Of a stretch of DNA of 64,000 nucleotides, positions 19,969 to 52,397 are shown piece by piece. Where the stretch lies: NCBI RefSeq assembly GCF_029433445.1, contig NZ_JAQTIC010000003.1, forward strand, positions 124,001 to 188,000, in the 5' to 3' direction. The stretch comes from Lactobacillus sp. ESL0701. GTDB taxonomy: Bacteria > Bacillota > Bacilli > Lactobacillales > Lactobacillaceae. The stretch's first letter is position 1, and each line of letters begins with the position of its first letter. Below the pieces are notes generated by a model, which was not told the origin of the DNA, searched no databases, and saw only the letters and a list, made by a program, of their open reading frames with translations. Both the position numbers and the translations under genes were made by a program.

Positions 19969-21252
19969 ATGGAAGACTTAACGCGCCTCGCAGGTCGCCA
20001 ATGGGTTGGCGGTCAAGAGGATTTTAGCACAAATATGGCACTGACGAAAATCGCCGCAATTACTAATGGTCAGTGTAATCGTTGCGGCGCAAAGGTGAAA
20101 GCGCAATTGCCCAACGGTAAAAAATACTGCCGTTCATGTTTAAATATTGGGCGAATAGTTGAAGGCGATTATTTGTGGCGCAACCAGATGAAAGTAAATT
20201 TTCCGATTTCTAAAACTGGCGGCTTAACTTGGGTTGGCAAGTTGACTAGTCTGCAGGCACAAATTTCACAGCAGTTAGTTAATAATTTTAATCAGCATCA
20301 AAATACCTTAGTTCACGCTGTAACAGGTGCAGGTAAAACAGAAATGCTATTTGCGCTGCTGGCGGAAAGTTTGAAGTTAGGGCAGCGAGTTTGTATTGCT
20401 ACACCGCGGATTGATGTGATAAATGAGCTGTATCCGCGAGTACGGGCAGCATTTGCTCAAGTTGAAATTGGTGTGTATCATGGCCGCAAGTATCAGGAAC
20501 CAGGATTAGAGCAGTTGACAATTTGTACGACGCACCAATTACTAAAGTTTTATCGCGCCTTTGATCTATTAGTGATTGATGAAGTTGATTCTTTTCCTTA
20601 TGCTGGTAACGACCAGCTTCATTTTGGCGCACAAAATGCGGTAAAGGAAAGCGGCGTGCGGGTTTATTTGACCGCAACACCGACCGCTGATTTATTGACA
20701 CAAGTAAAAGCAGGGCAGCTGCAAATTTTGAAATTAAACCAGCGTTTTCACGGTGGTAAACTTCCAGTCCCAAAAGAAAAATTATTTTTGCGCCAGTTTT
20801 TAAATCGGGGTAAGCTACATCCTAAATTGTTGGCGGCGATTTTGACGGCAATTGAAGAAGGACGTCCTTTGCTATTATTTGTTCCCAGAGTTGAGCAAAT
20901 TCCCGTGTATTTAGCGGCACTTAGGCGGGAAATGGAATTAGCTGATATTGCGATGGCAGGGGTTTATGCTGCTGATAAAAAGCGACTAGAGAAAGTAGAG
21001 CAATTTCGTAAACAGCAACTACAAGTTTTGGTAACCACAACAATTTTAGAGCGCGGGGTAACATTTAAACATGTTTGGGTGATTGTTCTTGCCGCTGATG
21101 ACCAAATTTACACTCCAGCTAGTCTTGTTCAAATAGCTGGTCGTGTTGGTCGAGCCCAAGATGATACTGATGGCTTAGTGCTATTTTGCTATCACAAATA
21201 TACGGCAAATTTGCGCAGTGCCGTGAAGCAAATTAAGGAAATGAATCGATGA
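19969..21252 (+). CDS. comFA: Competence helicase ComFA
   Basis: 427 aa DEAD/DEAH-type ATPase. An N-terminal four-cysteine zinc site (CNRCGAK...YCRSC), Walker A TGAGKTE near residue 119, Walker B VIDEVD, motif III TATPT, and motif VI QIAGRVGRAQ are all present. In competent bacteria it helps pull single-stranded DNA through ComEC. Overlaps comFC by four bases (ATGA), so the pair is translationally coupled. Intact, although the genus is not usually transformable. Confidence 0.94.
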   Translation: MEDLTRLAGRQWVGGQEDFSTNMALTKIAAITNGQCNRCGAKVKAQLPNGKKYCRSCLNIGRIVEGDYLWRNQMKVNFPISKTGGLTWVGKLTSLQAQISQQLVNNFNQHQNTLVHAVTGAGKTEMLFALLAESLKLGQRVCIATPRIDVINELYPRVRAAFAQVEIGVYHGRKYQEPGLEQLTICTTHQLLKFYRAFDLLVIDEVDSFPYAGNDQLHFGAQNAVKESGVRVYLTATPTADLLTQVKAGQLQILKLNQRFHGGKLPVPKEKLFLRQFLNRGKLHPKLLAAILTAIEEGRPLLLFVPRVEQIPVYLAALRREMELADIAMAGVYAADKKRLEKVEQFRKQQLQVLVTTTILERGVTFKHVWVIVLAADDQIYTPASLVQIAGRVGRAQDDTDGLVLFCYHKYTANLRSAVKQIKEMNR

Positions 21253-41465: not shown

Positions 41466-41578
41466 TTAAATCACTTACATGAGAGGCTGTCAATGAAAGT
41501 GTATCAATTTTGTATTTTTTGTAATGCCCATCTTATATTACAATATAAGGAGTATATTAAATTTTGGAGGAAAGATTT

Positions 41579-43312
41579 TTGAAGCATTTTACTAAAATAG
41601 CAACAATTATGACGACATTAATGATGGGCGTTTCAGTCGTAACCAGCTCATCTGCGGCAGTAGTTGCGGCCGCTACAACTGACTCTGATGCACCTGCTTC
41701 AGATACTACCAATTCGGCGACTAAGCCTGACGATACGCAAAATACAAATACCGCTACAACTGATGATAATCAGACAGATAATCCTGCTAAGCCTGATGCT
41801 GCACAGGACATGGCTAATGCTGATAAGGACAAAAAGCCGAAGGCTAAACCAAAGCAAAAGGTAATTGGTTATTCAATGATGACCAAGGTTGCCGGCAATA
41901 AGAACTACAAGGTTTGGAAAACAGTAACTGATGGTAAGGTTCATACTAAGGTTGCCGATGGTAAAATTTACCAATATAACCACATTCAGTCAGATCAATT
42001 GATTGAAACTAAAAATGCTCGCTATTGGCGAATTTATGTTGATGGTCGTGAAGTTGGTTATGTTAACGAAAATTATTTTGCTAAGAATCAAATTTCAGTA
42101 CCTAAGACAATTTCTTTAGTCCGTAATGATAATTATGATTTCTTCTCATCAGATGCAATTTCTTATGTAACTAACAACATGGGGACAGTAATTGACAACG
42201 ATAGTGTCAAAATTTCTAAACCGGATATTTCTTGTAGTAAGGCCAAGACTTATAATGTTAAGTATAGTTATGGTTCAGCTAAAGCCACAGTTAAGGTAAC
42301 GGTGAGAAAAAGTACCAGTGAGGGGGTTGTTGATCCAACTGACTTTGCTGCTGTAACTGGCGAACCTGGTACTAATGATTATCAGACTTGGAAAAAGCAT
42401 TACGGCTCATCAGTTAATTATATTAGTCCAACTGAGTACACACCGGAAACTGAATCTCACACTTTAACTAGTGGTGATTTGACGTTGAAGACTAAGTTTT
42501 ATCAGCCAGTGCTTTTGAGTGTTAAAGATCCGTCAGACAATAATATTAATCGTGTCGGTCATATCCCAGAAGGGATGACAGTTTCTGACGGGTGGGCTTA
42601 TACAAGTTTGTTGAGCCACACTAATTTAATGTCTGGTCACATTGTTGGTTATGATTTGAATAAGTTAAAGGATCCATATAACGCGCAACATTTGCTTGAT
42701 ATGTCGCAAACTGATTTTAATAATTATGTGAAGCATATTAAGGTTAGTCAATATATCCCGATTGGTCATGGTCAAGCAATGGGTGCAAGTGAAAAATATA
42801 TTTATGTAATTAATAATGATCATACACAAAAGAAGAGTACTGACTCAGTTGAATTGATGCAGATTCGTAAGAGTGACATGCAAATTAACAAGATTTGGAC
42901 TTTTAAGACTTGGATTGGTGATGATACCCAAACACGTTATTTCCAAAATGGTGTTGTAATGTCAGATTATGATATGTACACGGTTTATCACGATACTAAG
43001 AATAATTGTTATGAATATTGGGAATTACAGCGTAAGGGCGATAACTGGTACCCAACGCTTGTAGGTAAGACTAACGGCAATTTTGTCAATAATGGTGCCC
43101 CTGTTCAGGGCTTTGCCTATGATCCTACTAATCAGAAGTTTTACCTAGGCTTTAACGATTTGATTTTTAAGATGAATCGCAATGGTGCAATTAAAGAGGC
43201 TTACAAGTTTGACACTGGTCGCGAGATTGAGGGGATGTCAGTCAGCGATAATCAATTATACGTTAACTTGGCCCAACGTGCAGAATTGTTGGTCAGTCTG
43301 AAGATTAATTAA
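41579..43312 (+). CDS. Secreted GW-like/propeller protein, paralogue A
   Basis: 577 aa. TTG start at 41579, 8 bases after GGAGG; the in-frame TTG at 41564 overlaps that site. Signal peptide to about residue 30, then an Asp/Thr/Ala/Lys-rich linker (30-105), an SH3/GW-like module (MTKVAGNKNYKVWKTV ... YWRIYVDGREVGYVNENYFAKN), a beta-sandwich domain and a C-terminal ~330-residue region with propeller-like repeats (HGQAMGASEKYIYVI, QIRKSDMQINKIW, APVQGFAYD). It aligns along most of its length with the protein at 45373-46899. No LPXTG. Probably wall-associated; substrate unknown. Confidence 0.75.
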   Translation: MKHFTKIATIMTTLMMGVSVVTSSSAAVVAAATTDSDAPASDTTNSATKPDDTQNTNTATTDDNQTDNPAKPDAAQDMANADKDKKPKAKPKQKVIGYSMMTKVAGNKNYKVWKTVTDGKVHTKVADGKIYQYNHIQSDQLIETKNARYWRIYVDGREVGYVNENYFAKNQISVPKTISLVRNDNYDFFSSDAISYVTNNMGTVIDNDSVKISKPDISCSKAKTYNVKYSYGSAKATVKVTVRKSTSEGVVDPTDFAAVTGEPGTNDYQTWKKHYGSSVNYISPTEYTPETESHTLTSGDLTLKTKFYQPVLLSVKDPSDNNINRVGHIPEGMTVSDGWAYTSLLSHTNLMSGHIVGYDLNKLKDPYNAQHLLDMSQTDFNNYVKHIKVSQYIPIGHGQAMGASEKYIYVINNDHTQKKSTDSVELMQIRKSDMQINKIWTFKTWIGDDTQTRYFQNGVVMSDYDMYTVYHDTKNNCYEYWELQRKGDNWYPTLVGKTNGNFVNNGAPVQGFAYDPTNQKFYLGFNDLIFKMNRNGAIKEAYKFDTGREIEGMSVSDNQLYVNLAQRAELLVSLKIN

Positions 43313-43315
43313 AAG

Positions 43316-43347
43316 AAAAAATAAGAGCTAACAGCTCTTATTTTTTT
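43316..43347 (+). terminator. Rho-independent terminator of paralogue A
   Basis: Perfect stem AATAAGAGCT / AGCTCTTATT, short loop, seven T. Confidence 0.92.
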
Positions 43348-43356
43348 GTTTTTACA

Positions 43357-43365
43357 TGTTATAGT
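43357..43365 (+). promoter_or_regulatory. Extended -10 promoter of the putative antitoxin RNA
   Basis: TGTTATAGT: TG motif one base before TATAGT (43360-43365). The -35 is weak. Predicted start near 43372, the first base of the hairpin. Confidence 0.5.
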
Positions 43366-43372
43366 ATTAAAA

Positions 43373-43401
43373 AAGAAGTCCTGTTGGTATCAGGACTTCT
43401 T
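43373..43401 (-). terminator. Terminator of the minus-strand small ORF
   Basis: The same 11-bp stem read on the minus strand, followed there by TTTT. It would end the small-ORF mRNA about 75-105 bases past its stop. Confidence 0.65.
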
Positions 43402-43445
43402 ACATGAGTTTCCGCATAAAAGCGGTGACTTAACTATTAGTTAAT

Positions 43446-43486
43446 AATAACCGTTAGTGTGTCAAGACTAGAGCGGTTATTTTTTC
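43446..43486 (+). terminator. Terminator of the plus-strand RNA
   Basis: AATAACCG / CGGTTATT with a 20-nt loop, then TTTTT. Confidence 0.65.
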
Positions 43487-43692
43487 GCTTTAAAATTCTT
43501 TAAAGCAGCTCTTAGTTCATTAAATGCGCTAACTAATTTGGTGGCATTATCAGTTAATTTAATTAAACTACTGATAATTTCTGCCAGTATCCAAATAGTT
43601 GCGGCAAATGATAAATCAAAAGCAATAACAATATCCAAGGCGGCTACCTGATTAATCAACCTTTTTAATTTAGTATTCAATTTTTGCGGCAA
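43477..43692 (-). CDS. Small hydrophobic protein, candidate type I toxin
   Basis: Up to 71 aa from TTG 43692; a 53-aa form from TTG 43638 (MDIVIAFDL...) has an AGG 8 bases upstream and is the likelier start, though neither site is strong. One hydrophobic helix (IVIAFDLSFAATIWILAEII) is followed by a basic end (LKNFKAKK), the usual shape of membrane-acting type I toxins. It follows the permease terminator on the same strand and converges on the putative RNA at 43372-43486. I recognise no named family; it could also be a gene remnant. Confidence 0.45.
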   Translation of the reverse strand: MPQKLNTKLKRLINQVAALDIVIAFDLSFAATIWILAEIISSLIKLTDNATKLVSAFNELRAALKNFKAKK

Positions 43693-43693
43693 T

Positions 43694-43720
43694 AAAAAAC
43701 CGCCCCTAAAGGGCGGTTAA
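43694..43720 (-). terminator. Terminator of the APC permease gene (or 5' hairpin of the small ORF mRNA)
   Basis: On the minus strand AACCGCCC / GGGCGGTT followed by TTTTTT. It lies 10 bases after the permease stop and just ahead of the small ORF. Confidence 0.85.
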
Positions 43721-43729
43721 ATAATATAA

Positions 43730-45169
43730 TTAATTCATTTTAGCTTCTTGATGATGCTTGATAGCCGGTAAGATTAAACCAAGAAGGAATAAAATAATTG
43801 GCGTTGCAACATTCAGTGCTAATGTAAACGGATCAGGAGAATACATTCCCATGATACAACAAGCAGCAGTAACGGCAAAGCACCAGATACCAGCCGTAAA
43901 TGCCAGACCTTGATGAGTTGTCATTTGGTAAGTGTTGTCGGTAACGAATTTCTTACATTGCTTACGTAATGCAATGTAAGCTGCGAAAACCCAGAAGTAA
44001 CGGATTGGCATAACAATTGAGTTTAATTTAACCAGTTGAGCCATAACTGCTTGAGCGTTTGGCATAACAGCTTGAAGAAGAATTAAACCACCAGATAAGG
44101 CGACAATTAACCAGATACCATTGATGTATGCACCGTGCTTATTTAACTTAAGCAGTTTCTTAGGGATGAAGTCTTTAGCTTCCTTGCTACCTAAGAGCAT
44201 TCTTAGTGGCGCATCAATACTGATAACTAAAGTTGAGAACTGACCGATAACATTACACCAAGAATAGATATACATAAACAAACCACCAACGTGGTAGTAT
44301 TGACCTAATTTATTGAAGGCCATGTAAGGACCGTTTGAAATATATTCATTTAGATTGCTGCTGACAACTTTAGGATCAAACATCATTGCCATCGCAACGG
44401 TACCTAAAATCGCTGAAATCATAACCATAACTGCTAGACCAATCATTGCTTTCGGGAAGTTCTTGGTTGGGTCCTTTAACTTGTTAACATATGGTGAAAT
44501 CTTTTCAGCACCGCCGACAGCAAAGACTAGGATTGACAATGAAGTGAAATACTTCATATTAAAAGTCGGCATAAAGTTCTTCCAGTTCCAACTAATATTG
44601 AAGTAGCTGGCATGTGGGTTAATCAAAGGTGCCGCAAACATCATGATGATGAATAAAATTGACATCACAAACATTGAAGTACCAGCGATTGTTGATAAGG
44701 TCTTGATAACCTGAACACCGCGGCTGGCAACCCAGCAGAAGAATAGGAAAACTACAAGAGTGGCAAGTTGTGTCCAAGCAGTTGGCAAGCCGTCGTACCA
44801 ATTGGTATTACCAAAGATGCCCCAAGCCATTCCTCTTAGTCCACCCGTTCCTTTACTGGAAATATAAACGATATGAACAGCCCAGAAGGTCCAACCAGCG
44901 TAATAAGCCCATTTTGGTCCCATTGTTGCGTTGACCCAGGAGGCAACACCACCTTCGGAATCTTTGAAGACAGAACCAAGTTCACCAACCATTAAGGCGT
45001 AAGGGATAAAGAATAGCAGGAAGATCATAATCCAGCTAAAGATAACGTGGGTCCCATCGAAATAAACAAATCCGTTAACAACATTACCAAAACTCCAAAC
45101 GATAGAGAAGGCCATTGTTGCCAAGGTTGTCCACAACATTTTCTTAGAATTGTCGTGTGTTTCAATCAT
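43730..45169 (-). CDS. APC-superfamily amino acid permease (YjeM/glutamate-GABA antiporter group)
   Basis: 479 aa from ATG 45169 (MIETHDNSKK) with AAGGAG upstream; the in-frame start at 45214 lacks a ribosome site. Twelve membrane spans and the GGA-group features FFIPYALMVGELGSVFKDSEGGVASWV and AVGGAEKISPYVNKLKDPTKNFPKAM. It probably exchanges or imports an amino acid; which one is not visible. Flanked by the two secreted paralogues and convergent with A. Confidence 0.88.
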   Translation of the reverse strand: MIETHDNSKKMLWTTLATMAFSIVWSFGNVVNGFVYFDGTHVIFSWIMIFLLFFIPYALMVGELGSVFKDSEGGVASWVNATMGPKWAYYAGWTFWAVHIVYISSKGTGGLRGMAWGIFGNTNWYDGLPTAWTQLATLVVFLFFCWVASRGVQVIKTLSTIAGTSMFVMSILFIIMMFAAPLINPHASYFNISWNWKNFMPTFNMKYFTSLSILVFAVGGAEKISPYVNKLKDPTKNFPKAMIGLAVMVMISAILGTVAMAMMFDPKVVSSNLNEYISNGPYMAFNKLGQYYHVGGLFMYIYSWCNVIGQFSTLVISIDAPLRMLLGSKEAKDFIPKKLLKLNKHGAYINGIWLIVALSGGLILLQAVMPNAQAVMAQLVKLNSIVMPIRYFWVFAAYIALRKQCKKFVTDNTYQMTTHQGLAFTAGIWCFAVTAACCIMGMYSPDPFTLALNVATPIILFLLGLILPAIKHHQEAKMN

Positions 45170-45372: not shown

Positions 45373-46899
45373 ATGAAGAAAATACAGATTGGGAAGCGTC
45401 TACTAGTTGGTGCAATAGCTGCAACTAGCTTATTTGCGTGTAGTAATTATCATGTGGCTAATGCCAAGAGTTACAGTAAGGCTATAACAAAAGTAGCTGG
45501 CACTGGCAATTACGCAATTTATCATCATGTTTCATCTAAAGGACCAACTGGTGCATTTACGTCAACTAAGTATTTTAAGCATGCTAATTTGCAGGCAAAG
45601 CGGTCATTGACAACTAAAAAGGGTAAGTTTTGGCAAATTATTGTTGATGGTCGAATTGTCGGTTGGGTTAACCAGAACTTTTTTGCCAAGAATAAAATTG
45701 AGGTAGCCAAAAGAGTTAGTCTAGTTGAAAACAGCAATTACGAGTTCCCAACAAGGGATGCCATTAGCGTGGCTGCAAATAGTCAAGGAACAGCAATCAA
45801 TCCCAGTGATATTAAAGCCTCACCGGCTAAAATCGATACAAGTAAACCGGGAACAACCACGGTTAATTTTCAGTATGGCAGTGCTAAGGCGAGCATTGAA
45901 GTAACTGTGCGTGGCAATCAAGGTGAGGGCATTACCCGAGCTGATCAAACACCAAAGAATGGTCCGACACCCGTTTCTACATGGAAGGGTAGTTCTAAAT
46001 CATCATCACGCAATTGGAATGCCAAACATCATTATGGCTTTGAAACTAAAACTAATACTTTTAAAGCTGGTGATTTAACACTGAAAACCAAACTTTATCA
46101 GCCACGCTTTGTTAGTTTGGACTACAATCAAGCCGCTGATAAGATGGGCCAAGTTGGTGTAATTCCAGAAGGAATTACGGTAAACGGCAATAATTTTACA
46201 GTTGCGGTTTTCAATAATAGTAGTGATGACAAGGGGCACCTAGTTTCTTATGACTTAGCCCATATTAATAAGTATCGTGCTCAAAATTTATCGGGCTTAA
46301 GTTGGTCAACATTTAAAAATTATGCTGCTCATATTAAGGTGAGTCCTTACATTAAGTTGGGTCATGGCCAGTCACTTGGATCTTCTAGTAAGTATCTTTA
46401 TGTTATGGCTAATAACAATAAGCTTCATAATTCCAGTGCTTCTGAAGAAATCTTACAAATCCGTAAGTCTGATATGCAAATTAATCAGATTTGGTCATTT
46501 AAGATTGCAAATGGTAATTCGCCGCGCTACATCCACAATGCAACCTTTAGTGGTGATAACACGATGTATTGCTTATTCCATAATGGCAGCAACGGACGCT
46601 ACGAATATTGGAAAGTTACTAGAGATGGTGATACCTGGACGCCAGTTGAAGTTGGTTCTACCCAAAGCAACTTTATTGGGAATGGCTCGCCAGTTCAGGG
46701 CTTTACCTACGATGCAAGTCACAACCAATTTTATATTGGCTTTAATGACTATTTGTTCCGTGTTAGTCAAGATGGTACTTATAAAGGAAGAAATAAATTA
46801 CACGTTAAACGAGAAATTGAAGGTTTAGCAGTTTCTGGCAGTAAACTTTACGTTGAATTTGCTCAACGTGGTGAATTAACGGTAGGAAAAATAAAATAG
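45373..46899 (+). CDS. Secreted GW-like/propeller protein, paralogue B
   Basis: 508 aa. Signal peptide with two readings: a lipobox-like LFAC at residues 20-23, or signal peptidase I cleavage after VANA at residue 31. It lacks the long linker of paralogue A but shares the GW-like module (ITKVAGTGNYAIYHHV, FWQIIVDGRIVGWVNQNFFAKN), the middle domain and the C-terminal repeats (HGQSLGSSSKYLYVM, QIRKSDMQINQIW, SPVQGFTYD). Tandem-type duplication with the permease gene between the copies. Function unknown; probable cell-surface binding protein. Confidence 0.75.
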   Translation: MKKIQIGKRLLVGAIAATSLFACSNYHVANAKSYSKAITKVAGTGNYAIYHHVSSKGPTGAFTSTKYFKHANLQAKRSLTTKKGKFWQIIVDGRIVGWVNQNFFAKNKIEVAKRVSLVENSNYEFPTRDAISVAANSQGTAINPSDIKASPAKIDTSKPGTTTVNFQYGSAKASIEVTVRGNQGEGITRADQTPKNGPTPVSTWKGSSKSSSRNWNAKHHYGFETKTNTFKAGDLTLKTKLYQPRFVSLDYNQAADKMGQVGVIPEGITVNGNNFTVAVFNNSSDDKGHLVSYDLAHINKYRAQNLSGLSWSTFKNYAAHIKVSPYIKLGHGQSLGSSSKYLYVMANNNKLHNSSASEEILQIRKSDMQINQIWSFKIANGNSPRYIHNATFSGDNTMYCLFHNGSNGRYEYWKVTRDGDTWTPVEVGSTQSNFIGNGSPVQGFTYDASHNQFYIGFNDYLFRVSQDGTYKGRNKLHVKREIEGLAVSGSKLYVEFAQRGELTVGKIK

Positions 46900-50749: not shown

Positions 50750-51505
50750 ATGCGTACACCAATTATTGCTGGTAACTGGAAATTGCACATGAATCCAGAA
50801 CAAACAACTGAATTTGTTGATGCCGTTAAAGGTAAGTTGCCAGAATCTACTAAAGTTGAAGCCTTGATCTGTGCTCCAGCTGTTGACCTTGAAAATCTAG
50901 CACAAGCTGCTAAGGGTTCTAACCTAAAAGTCGGTGCAGAAAATGCCTATTTTGAAGATGAAGGTGCCTTCACTGGTGAAACTTCACCTAAAGTTTTAAA
51001 AGAAATGGGTATGGATTACTGCATTATCGGTCACTCAGAACGGCGCGGTTACTTCCACGAAACTGACGAAGACATTAACAAGAAGGCTAAGGCTTTGCTG
51101 GCTAATGGCATTACACCAATCATCTGCTGTGGTGAATCACTACAAAGACGTGAAGCTAACCAGCAAGAAGAATGGGTAGTTGGTCAAATTGAGGAAGCTT
51201 TAAAAGGCTTATCAGCTGAACAAGTTGCTAGTTTAGTAATTGCCTATGAACCAATCTGGGCAATCGGTACTGGTAAGACTGCTAGTTCAGACCAAGCCGA
51301 AGAGATGTGTAAGACAATTCGCGACACTGTTAAGAACCTTTATAATGAAGAAACTGCCGCAAATGTTCGCATTCAATATGGTGGTTCCGTTAACCCTGAC
51401 AATGTTAAGGAACTAATGGCTAAACCTGATATTGATGGTGGTTTAGTCGGTGGTGCTAGCCTCAAGCCAGATTCATTCTTGGCTTTGGTTAATTACCAAG
51501 ACTAA
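50750..51505 (+). CDS. tpiA: Triosephosphate isomerase
   Basis: 251 aa. Lys11 in GNWKLH, His95 in GHSERR, Glu167 in [11 protein letters not shown] and the phosphate loop [17 protein letters not shown] ribosome site. Last gene of the glycolytic cluster; no enolase gene follows. Confidence 0.98.
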
Positions 51506-51513
51506 TAATATTT

Positions 51514-51551
51514 AAAAACCAGCTACTGCAAATAAGCAGTGGCTGGTTTTT
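51514..51551. terminator. Bidirectional terminator, tpiA/rgg-like gene
   Basis: AAAAACCAGC-T-ACTGC / GCAGT-G-GCTGGTTTTT between convergent genes. Confidence 0.9.
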
Positions 51552-51563
51552 AGTTTGGAATAT

Positions 51564-52397
51564 TTAATTATGTAATTTTTGTTTATTGTTAATTTCCTCT
51601 TTTAGTGGTTGAGCAACAGTACTGGCGCCAATTTTATTAAGTAAGTCGGCATAGTATAAAGCTTGTTTATAGTCTTGATCGCAGAGAGCAATTTCAGAAC
51701 GACAAAGAAGTGACTTATCATATTGACCAACTTCTTGTGCTAATTTATCAGCCTGAGTTAAAGTATCTTTTGCTTTTTGATAATTTTCTTCATCAATGTG
51801 TAAATTGCTTAGATTAATTAGAACGCTACATTTTAATGATTTTAAAAAAGGATAATAGTTATTGATTGTATATAAAATCTTATTAATGATTTGCTTGTTA
51901 GTTTCATAGTCAAAAGCATAGGCAATCATATTTAATAGGCAAATATCGGTAATTGTTAGAATCTTAATCTTGCTTAAATAGTCATTCCAAATAGGTTGAA
52001 CCAGTTTTTTCGCCGGCTCTAGACCATCTTTTTCATTTAGTAATAAAAGTGCTTTTAATACTAAGGATATTCGTTTGAGATCGTCATCATTAGTAGCAGA
52101 ACAGTCTACGATGATTTTTTTAATTTTGTCGGTTTCAGTACTAGTTTGTAAATTGAGCAGTTCATACAAAATTTTACTCTTTTTTGTCGGCAAATATCCC
52201 TTTTGAACATATTCAAATTCATTTAGACCTAAACTAAGTCGAAAAATCATTTCGTTAGCATTTTCTCGTGAAGGGTATACTTTGTCAGATTCAATCTTAG
52301 ATAAGGTACTGCGATCAAATAGTCCTTCAGCTAAATCTTCCTGACTAATTGAGCGTGATAAACGTAATTGTCGGATAGTTTCCCCAAATGTGTTCAT
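51564..52397 (-). CDS. Rgg/MutR-like transcriptional regulator
   Basis: 277 aa. Xre-type helix-turn-helix at residues 1-60 (IRQLRLSRSISQEDLAEGLFDRSTLSKIESDKVYPS), then ~215 residues of all-helical TPR-like repeats, the Rgg/GadR/MutR build that binds short signal peptides. It is divergent from the secreted-protein gene at 52650, with a palindrome in the shared spacer, so it is the probable local regulator. AT-rich codon use like the island that follows. The signal is unknown. Confidence 0.85.
   Translation of the reverse strand: MNTFGETIRQLRLSRSISQEDLAEGLFDRSTLSKIESDKVYPSRENANEMIFRLSLGLNEFEYVQKGYLPTKKSKILYELLNLQTSTETDKIKKIIVDCSATNDDDLKRISLVLKALLLLNEKDGLEPAKKLVQPIWNDYLSKIKILTITDICLLNMIAYAFDYETNKQIINKILYTINNYYPFLKSLKCSVLINLSNLHIDEENYQKAKDTLTQADKLAQEVGQYDKSLLCRSEIALCDQDYKQALYYADLLNKIGASTVAQPLKEEINNKQKLHN

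Follow-up and report, generated by a model that had tools for sequence, protein, structure and literature searches.

A probable half-decayed type I toxin-antitoxin locus in Lactobacillus sp. ESL0701, with a toxin lineage carried on a bsrE/bsrH-RatA-like chassis

Is a small minus-strand ORF that faces a structured plus-strand RNA in a Lactobacillus chromosome one half of a type I toxin-antitoxin (TA) pair, is that pair of a new kind, and is it still complete? The locus lies at 43357-43720 of a 64,000-nt stretch of Lactobacillus sp. ESL0701 (the window). An earlier note on this DNA had read it as a possible new type I pair with transcripts overlapping 3′ to 3′. The locus is here called the window copy; C17 refers to another contig of the same genome and to the copy that it carries. 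The explanation proposed below is a likely one: a half-decayed chromosomal type I TA module on a bsrE/bsrH-RatA (rli28) chassis, with a toxin lineage outside the family libraries searched.

A small ORF converging on a structured RNA

The features of the locus are collected in Table 1. Sequence, fold and alignments show in the window the layout of a type I TA locus, with an antisense RNA gene that overlaps the ORF of a small hydrophobic toxin.

Table 1. Features of the locus (positions of the window; features are sorted by position). R1, model of the antisense RNA; R2, model of the toxin family's leaders.
Feature	Position	Strand	Basis
Extended -10 element of the antisense RNA, TGTTATAGT	43357..43365	+	Read from the sequence; TGnTATAAT-like elements at the same place in many aligned copies
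Antisense (antitoxin) RNA: 5′ hairpin, second hairpin GAGTTTCCGC..GCGGTGACTT, terminator hairpin	about 43372..43486	+	Fold, covariation, R1
Terminator of the toxin transcript; its stem is the 5′ hairpin of the antisense RNA	43401-43373	-	Fold and terminator scan
Toxin ORF, 53 aa; TTG start 43638, stop codon 43477-43479	43480..43638	-	Start placed by homologues
Decayed remnant of the leader 3′ end; SD AGAAAGGA and start-codon hairpin lost	43639..43660	-	Alignments, R2
Terminator of the permease gene, occupying the expected site of the toxin leader and promoter	43698..43718	-	Terminator scan, alignments

The longest minus-strand ORF runs from a TTG at 43692 to the stop at 43477 (71 aa). The shorter 53-aa peptide is hydrophobic at its N-terminus and basic at its C-terminus. 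The C17 homologue is modelled by AlphaFold as one helix (residues 2-52; mean pLDDT 86.1; pTM 0.45). The membrane is the likely target of the toxin, given the hydrophobic N-terminus and basic C-terminus of this predicted one-helix peptide.

The plus-strand stretch 43372-43486 has a folding energy of -42.3 kcal/mol, compared with -20.8 +/- 3.2 for shuffled sequences (z -6.74; 0 of 200 shuffles as good). R1 was built from 29 copies of the toxin family alone, the window copy being one row, and gives 111 bits on the window RNA, which is thus included in the model. The fold and this score confirm the convergence of the ORF on a structured RNA that the earlier note had described. The note was also right about the extended -10 element and the terminator of that RNA, which are both present, and about the stem shared by the ORF terminator and the RNA 5′ hairpin, which the fold and the terminator scan recover. 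The consensus promoter scan of the locus listed no plus-strand promoter with a -35. Covariation among related genomes, which the note had suggested as a check, is found: double changes occur at 9 of the 15 consensus pairs over 29 copies, the 5′ hairpin lying outside that consensus. Terminator-like sites number five in 43200-43900 (0.5 expected); the stem 43315-43347 accounts for two of them, one per strand, and the permease gene for another. Six other genomes carry long DNA matches to the region, at 68-94% identity; together with the R1 score, they make the locus more than a chance arrangement.

It could be supposed that the locus is no TA system, the ORF encoding a small membrane protein that overlaps an unrelated sRNA or attenuator. 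The toxicity of the peptide is indeed presumed, but kinship with Hol_Tox loci at the RNA level and the one-sided loss of genes, both given below, argue against this explanation, which is regarded as very unlikely.

On either side of the locus and the permease gene lies a secreted protein; the two are paralogues and have GW and Big_3-like domains (41564-43312, where the Big_3 match is below cut-off, and 45373-46899).

An unrecognised toxin lineage on a known chassis

The DNA search found the second copy, C17 (87% identity), in the same genome. Matches occur in 19 of 150 relatives, many of them short; those of >150 bases are found in seven genomes, all Lactobacillus, the window genome included. 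With the toxin protein profile, 34 places are recovered across 9 of 75 Lactobacillus genomes, the weakest being distant. The 25 places that have a leader and an antisense region were aligned, 9 being excluded, among them the window copy. These 25 copies align throughout; one (L054) has a stop inside the ORF. All share a TATAAT-like element, a leader of about 120 nt, the SD AGAAAGGA or a close variant, a start-codon hairpin, the ORF and a 3′UTR. The start-codon hairpin is GTATCC/GGATAC in most family copies. A leader SD-ATG is conserved: the ATG is found in 24 of 24 aligned leaders and is followed in 22 by GTG TAA, which gives an ORF of two codons.

Twelve family members were compared with Pfam and NCBIfam at E 0.1. 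The toxin is unmatched by any family, neither Fst/Ldr nor Hol_Tox (PF16935) being found, which upholds the remark that the protein looks unlike Fst, TxpA, BsrG or holin-like toxins. Alignment of the toxin family with Hol_Tox by hhalign (probability 7.8 over 8 columns) found no protein relation. Viral contigs gave no confirmed match for the toxin family; phages and plasmids, searched with one query protein each, gave no match. Weak matches to phrog_5620 are seen in 12 of 12 members (best 7.4e-6) and in some distant toxins of the chassis; this is kept as a lead only, because phrog_5620 also has matches in one control genome.

Type I systems reported in Lactobacillus include Lpt (Fst family; L. 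rhamnosus) and bsrE/bsrH-like systems (PMC8309996, PMC6562991). The portions of the literature consulted, including PMC6562991, PMC7430163, PMC6563280, PMC8309996, PMC10903887, PMC3531473, PMC9484302 and PMC11228461, hold no description of the toxin lineage. The Lactobacillus Hol_Tox ORFs are taken here as bsrE/bsrH-like, according to our reading of part of PMC6562991 and of the sequences.

Hol_Tox matches are found in 61 of 100 relatives. The layout was compared at 12 of 13 Hol_Tox loci (L122 excluded): a leader ATG lies behind an SD-like stretch in all 12, and a CGGTnG element is present in 11 (absent from L113). The leader ORF is longer in some Hol_Tox loci and overlaps the toxin frame. A similar layout is found at distant toxins of G058, G073, G046 and G206, the last from another genus (L074 was excluded from this comparison), and a search with the leader pattern found further loci with it.

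The RNA models relate the leader and the antisense RNA to the Hol_Tox chassis. At every one of the 16 Hol_Tox loci, R1 matches the antisense place; 10 of them score 26.2-48.4 bits and 6 score 20.6-25.3, these six being lower than the best false positive seen (25.6 bits). That false positive (51476-51582) is a terminator hairpin behind a gene read as triosephosphate-isomerase. In whole genomes, eight R1 matches of 66.6-84.9 bits adjoin Hol_Tox matches, two of which are below the Pfam cut-off. R2 recognises 3 of the 16 Hol_Tox leaders (43.5-60.9 bits), with 45.1 for the Hol_Tox locus of G028; the other 13 are at chance level (<25.8 bits, the score of an off-place match).

Hol_Tox loci pass the cut-offs of the Rfam models RatA (79.3) and rli28 (56.2-66.5). 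The antisense layout of txpA/RatA is like that of the toxin family; RatA (RF01776, cut-off 49) scores below its cut-off on the window RNA (27.3, E 0.24) and on three copies in two other sources (L038, 40.2 and 33.5; L039, 35.5), and, for 14 further family sources, gives no match to their own antisense RNA at E 5. For rli28 (RF01492, cut-off 45), 7 of 17 family sources score 31.0-41.1 bits at their own copy, under the cut-off; matches over it in L057 and L104 sit on neighbouring loci and not on family copies. At the Rfam gathering cut-off, the whole window yields one tRNA and nothing else. A match of the rimP leader model to the minus strand of the window (28.5 bits, cut-off 47, E 0.018) is taken as chance.

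The chassis is therefore known and only the toxin lineage is new, being unrecognised by Pfam and NCBIfam and not recognisably Hol_Tox. The novelty claimed for the pair stands for the toxin; 'new type' is too strong, since the leader and the antisense RNA are related at the RNA level to Hol_Tox (bsrE/bsrH-like) loci. What is added is a multicopy toxin lineage missed by both protein libraries, whose control region is, by RNA comparison, common with that of holin-like toxins.

A chimera in G033 (L188, G033:C1:18200-21000) has a family leader (20424-20562) fused to the last Hol_Tox codons, leaving a 16-aa ORF and no antisense match in place. Family and Hol_Tox loci thus appear to recombine.

Pairing within the putative toxin mRNA

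The fuller copies suggest how the module would work. The promoter would give a toxin mRNA of about 390 nt comprising the leader, the 53-aa peptide and a 3′UTR complementary to the antisense RNA (about 115 nt) from the opposite strand. The 5′ end of the mRNA, ACATGAG..GCGGTGACTAATTT, would have two alternative partners, its own 3′UTR and the SD region (GGATTAGTCA). Carrying the same ACATGAG..GCGGTGACT, the antisense RNA would pair with the 3′UTR and so lead to decay by RNase III. Occupation of the 3′UTR by the antisense RNA would also free the leader, and the SD would be held closed, by analogy with SR4 on bsrG.

Both partners of the leader, the SD region and the 3′UTR, can be paired through the same GGTGACT. 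For the leader-SD and start-hairpin pairs, 94.7% of cells are paired (slid controls, 22-48%) and double changes occur at 3 of 16 pairs, a count reached by 4 of 500 shuffles. For the leader-3′UTR pairs, 96.2% of cells are paired (slid controls, 25-46%) and double changes occur at 3 of 17 pairs (reached by 19 of 500 shuffles). Energy models favour closure of the leader on the 3′UTR, the outer helix exceeding 0.9 in 18 and the inner helix 0.8 in 17 of the 25 copies. When the 3′UTR is blocked in the model, the leader-SD helix is >0.5 in 14 of 25 copies versus 7 of 25 unblocked, but in 24 of the 25 the predicted accessibility of the SD shifts by at most 0.11.

Leader-3′UTR duplexes were also compared across the chassis at 26 loci, hand-picked as representatives from those prepared (HT_L117 was dropped). 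Matched duplexes average -33.4 kcal/mol versus -25.7 for permuted ones, a difference equalled by 0 of 20,000 permutations. By group, the number is 0 for Hol_Tox alone, 6 for the distant toxins and 384 for the window toxin family, within which the signal is weak. Of the 26 rows, 9 have the own 3′UTR partner as the strict best, as do 8 of the 26 columns. Complementarity between the mRNA 5′ end and the 3′UTR that is kept across the chassis while the sequence changes suggests a switch. The leader-like sequence of the antisense RNA and the leader-3′UTR complementarity are one and the same observation, so that the pairing could have another cause, for example a shared binding site.

The closest known systems are bsrE/SR5, bsrH, other Hol_Tox loci and rli28-bsrH-ratA of Listeria, which have the same convergent 3′-3′ overlap, leader SD-ATG, SD and leader-3′UTR complementarity. 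Listeria plasmids are described as carrying rli28, a BsrH-like ORF and RatA together (PMC9484302). The window family differs from Hol_Tox by a 53-aa toxin whose C-terminus is long, basic and helical, and by the start-codon hairpin of most copies. RatA, SR4 and SR5 are described as pairing with the target 3′UTR over 100-140 bp (PMC6562991). Binding of SR4 lengthens the helix that closes the SD of bsrG according to the same source, as is proposed here for the window family, whereas SR5 and RatA are said there to leave the SD region of their targets unchanged, which counts against the step in which the SD is locked (PMC6562991). The BsrG RNA model gives 22.1 bits (E 0.0043) on the toxin strand of the window, under its cut-off of 55 bits.

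The mRNAs of hok/Sok-type systems are closed 5′ to 3′, as those of the window family are predicted to be. These processed mRNAs carry a leader ORF to which the toxin is coupled (PMC6562991), a likeness to the window family; in contrast to them, the antisense RNA of the family covers the 3′ end of the mRNA and not the leader. Fst/Ldr (par) systems and Lpt of L. rhamnosus share with the locus a small hydrophobic toxin and convergent RNAs (PMC8309996), but no Fst/Ldr model matches the family toxin. Of the systems to which the locus had been likened in the earlier note, txpA/ratA and bsrG/SR4 are retained; par/Fst is less apt than bsrE/bsrH-RatA.

A wider proposal is tentative and more doubtful than not. 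It holds that an undescribed toxin lineage sits on a conserved RNA chassis with an exchangeable toxin; that the chassis would be a three-state switch (leader on 3′UTR, leader on SD, open), the antisense RNA mimicking the leader, displacing it from the 3′UTR and so closing the SD; that the two-codon leader ORF (ATG GTG TAA) would load ribosomes upstream; and that surplus solitary antisense genes, that of the window included, would form a shared pool of trans antitoxin. Leader-3′UTR complementarity, a leader SD-ATG and an antisense RNA together provide a comparative signature by which type I modules with unrecognisable toxins can be found.

A probably silenced toxin, a kept antisense RNA and solitary antisense genes

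The window copy lacks the toxin promoter, the leader of about 120 nt, the SD and the start-codon hairpin that the 25 fuller copies have, so that promoters for both genes are not found there. The window copy can be aligned to its relatives up to about 43657 only, beyond which lies the permease terminator. R2 gives 30.3 bits on the window copy versus 150.1 on C17, which by sequence has a TATCAT -10 and a full leader. The toxin start is about 90 bp from the permease end in the window versus 899 bp in the orthologue of G049, where the 5′ end of the leader is also lost. Homologues had been expected to tell whether the ORF is a decayed fragment: the protein is as long as its relatives, and what is truncated, at the 5′ end, is the gene. 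The proposed pair with a 3′-3′ overlap thus holds for its architecture, which is that of txpA/RatA and bsrG/SR4, and fails as a complete pair, the toxin leader, promoter and SD being missing.

The deletion of leader, promoter and SD means that the window toxin is probably silent. The simplest reading of the sequence is a silenced toxin with a kept antisense RNA, i.e. a relic of a type I TA locus whose antisense RNA is probably live. A complete working pair, with the toxin transcribed from an internal promoter or by read-through from the permease gene, would agree with an ORF open over 53 codons, with intact hairpins and terminators and with one weak minus-strand promoter-like site, though this lies inside the ORF (43637-43608). 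It is improbable in view of the missing upstream elements, the difference in R2 scores and the 9-pair terminator that closes the permease transcript.

Comparison with the G049 orthologue bears on what is left. All 93 bases compared in the antisense body are identical, as are all 45 in the terminator stretch next to it; identity is 148 of 155 for the toxin ORF and 1296 of 1413 (91.7%) for the flanking CDS. Nonsynonymous and synonymous changes in the window ORF number 6 and 2 relative to L007, 7 and 1 relative to L038 and 7 and 4 relative to L039; the counts are 2 and 5 for L007 versus L038, and 3 and 6 for L038 versus L039. This sign of relaxed constraint is weak because the counts are small and because every copy, intact ones included, has about twice as many nonsynonymous as synonymous changes versus the more distant L049. 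That the locus is a dead relic, with both halves decaying and an antisense RNA without a role, is a possibility of some weight, held at less than even. TATAAT has become TATAGT and there are gaps near the RNA start relative to the orthologue, but the RNA body is unchanged and its hairpins are intact.

The kept antisense RNA could instead act in trans on the C17 copy. A role in trans only, as a spare antitoxin against C17 and perhaps against Hol_Tox copies, would explain the retention of solitary antisense genes and is entertained as a possible reading, short of an even chance. The window RNA and the C17 3′UTR are predicted to form a duplex of -129.7 kcal/mol (-215.4 for C17 with its own RNA), and a duplex of -67.3 kcal/mol is predicted with the 3′UTR of the Hol_Tox locus of C14. 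The 93 kept antisense bases agree with such a role, but their identity may reflect a recent gene conversion, the adjacent 45 bp being also 100% identical.

The numbers of antisense genes and leaders are unequal. Among the best 53 R1 matches (66.4 bits and up; >90 weaker ones were excluded), 28 have a family leader where it is expected, 2 are parted from theirs by about 1.5 kb of inserted DNA, 8 are beside a Hol_Tox match and 15 have neither leader nor Hol_Tox in place. The 15 were established by inspection of the sequence (11) or by the leader search (4); 7 are extra copies near the leader of another copy and 8, the window copy included, have no leader within 2.5 kb. Conversely, 31 leaders of 84 bits and up comprise 28 paired, 2 split and 1 with a broken chimeric ORF. 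Such a one-sided loss is the pattern expected if the toxin is harmful without its antisense RNA; tandem copies are not independent in this count. The 15 matches also fit a role in trans, but solitary copies may be harmless leftovers, and antisense matches are no proof of expression. As antisense genes outnumber toxins, the question of a trans-acting antitoxin is directly testable in Lactobacillus.

The window genome has 8 antisense matches; leader and toxin are intact only at C17 (family type) and at C14:140057 (Hol_Tox-like). Four loci of this genome (L176, L179, L180, L181) have antisense matches with no toxin gene or only its end. Elsewhere, two antisense genes lie in tandem beside a single toxin (L089-L091), and the arrays L087 and L088 have four antisense matches for three leaders in G010:C2 and six for four in G033. 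In G052 (L189, L190), insertions of about 1.5 kb separate the toxin from the antisense gene; that of L189 carries a 464-aa ORF, transposase-like by eye.
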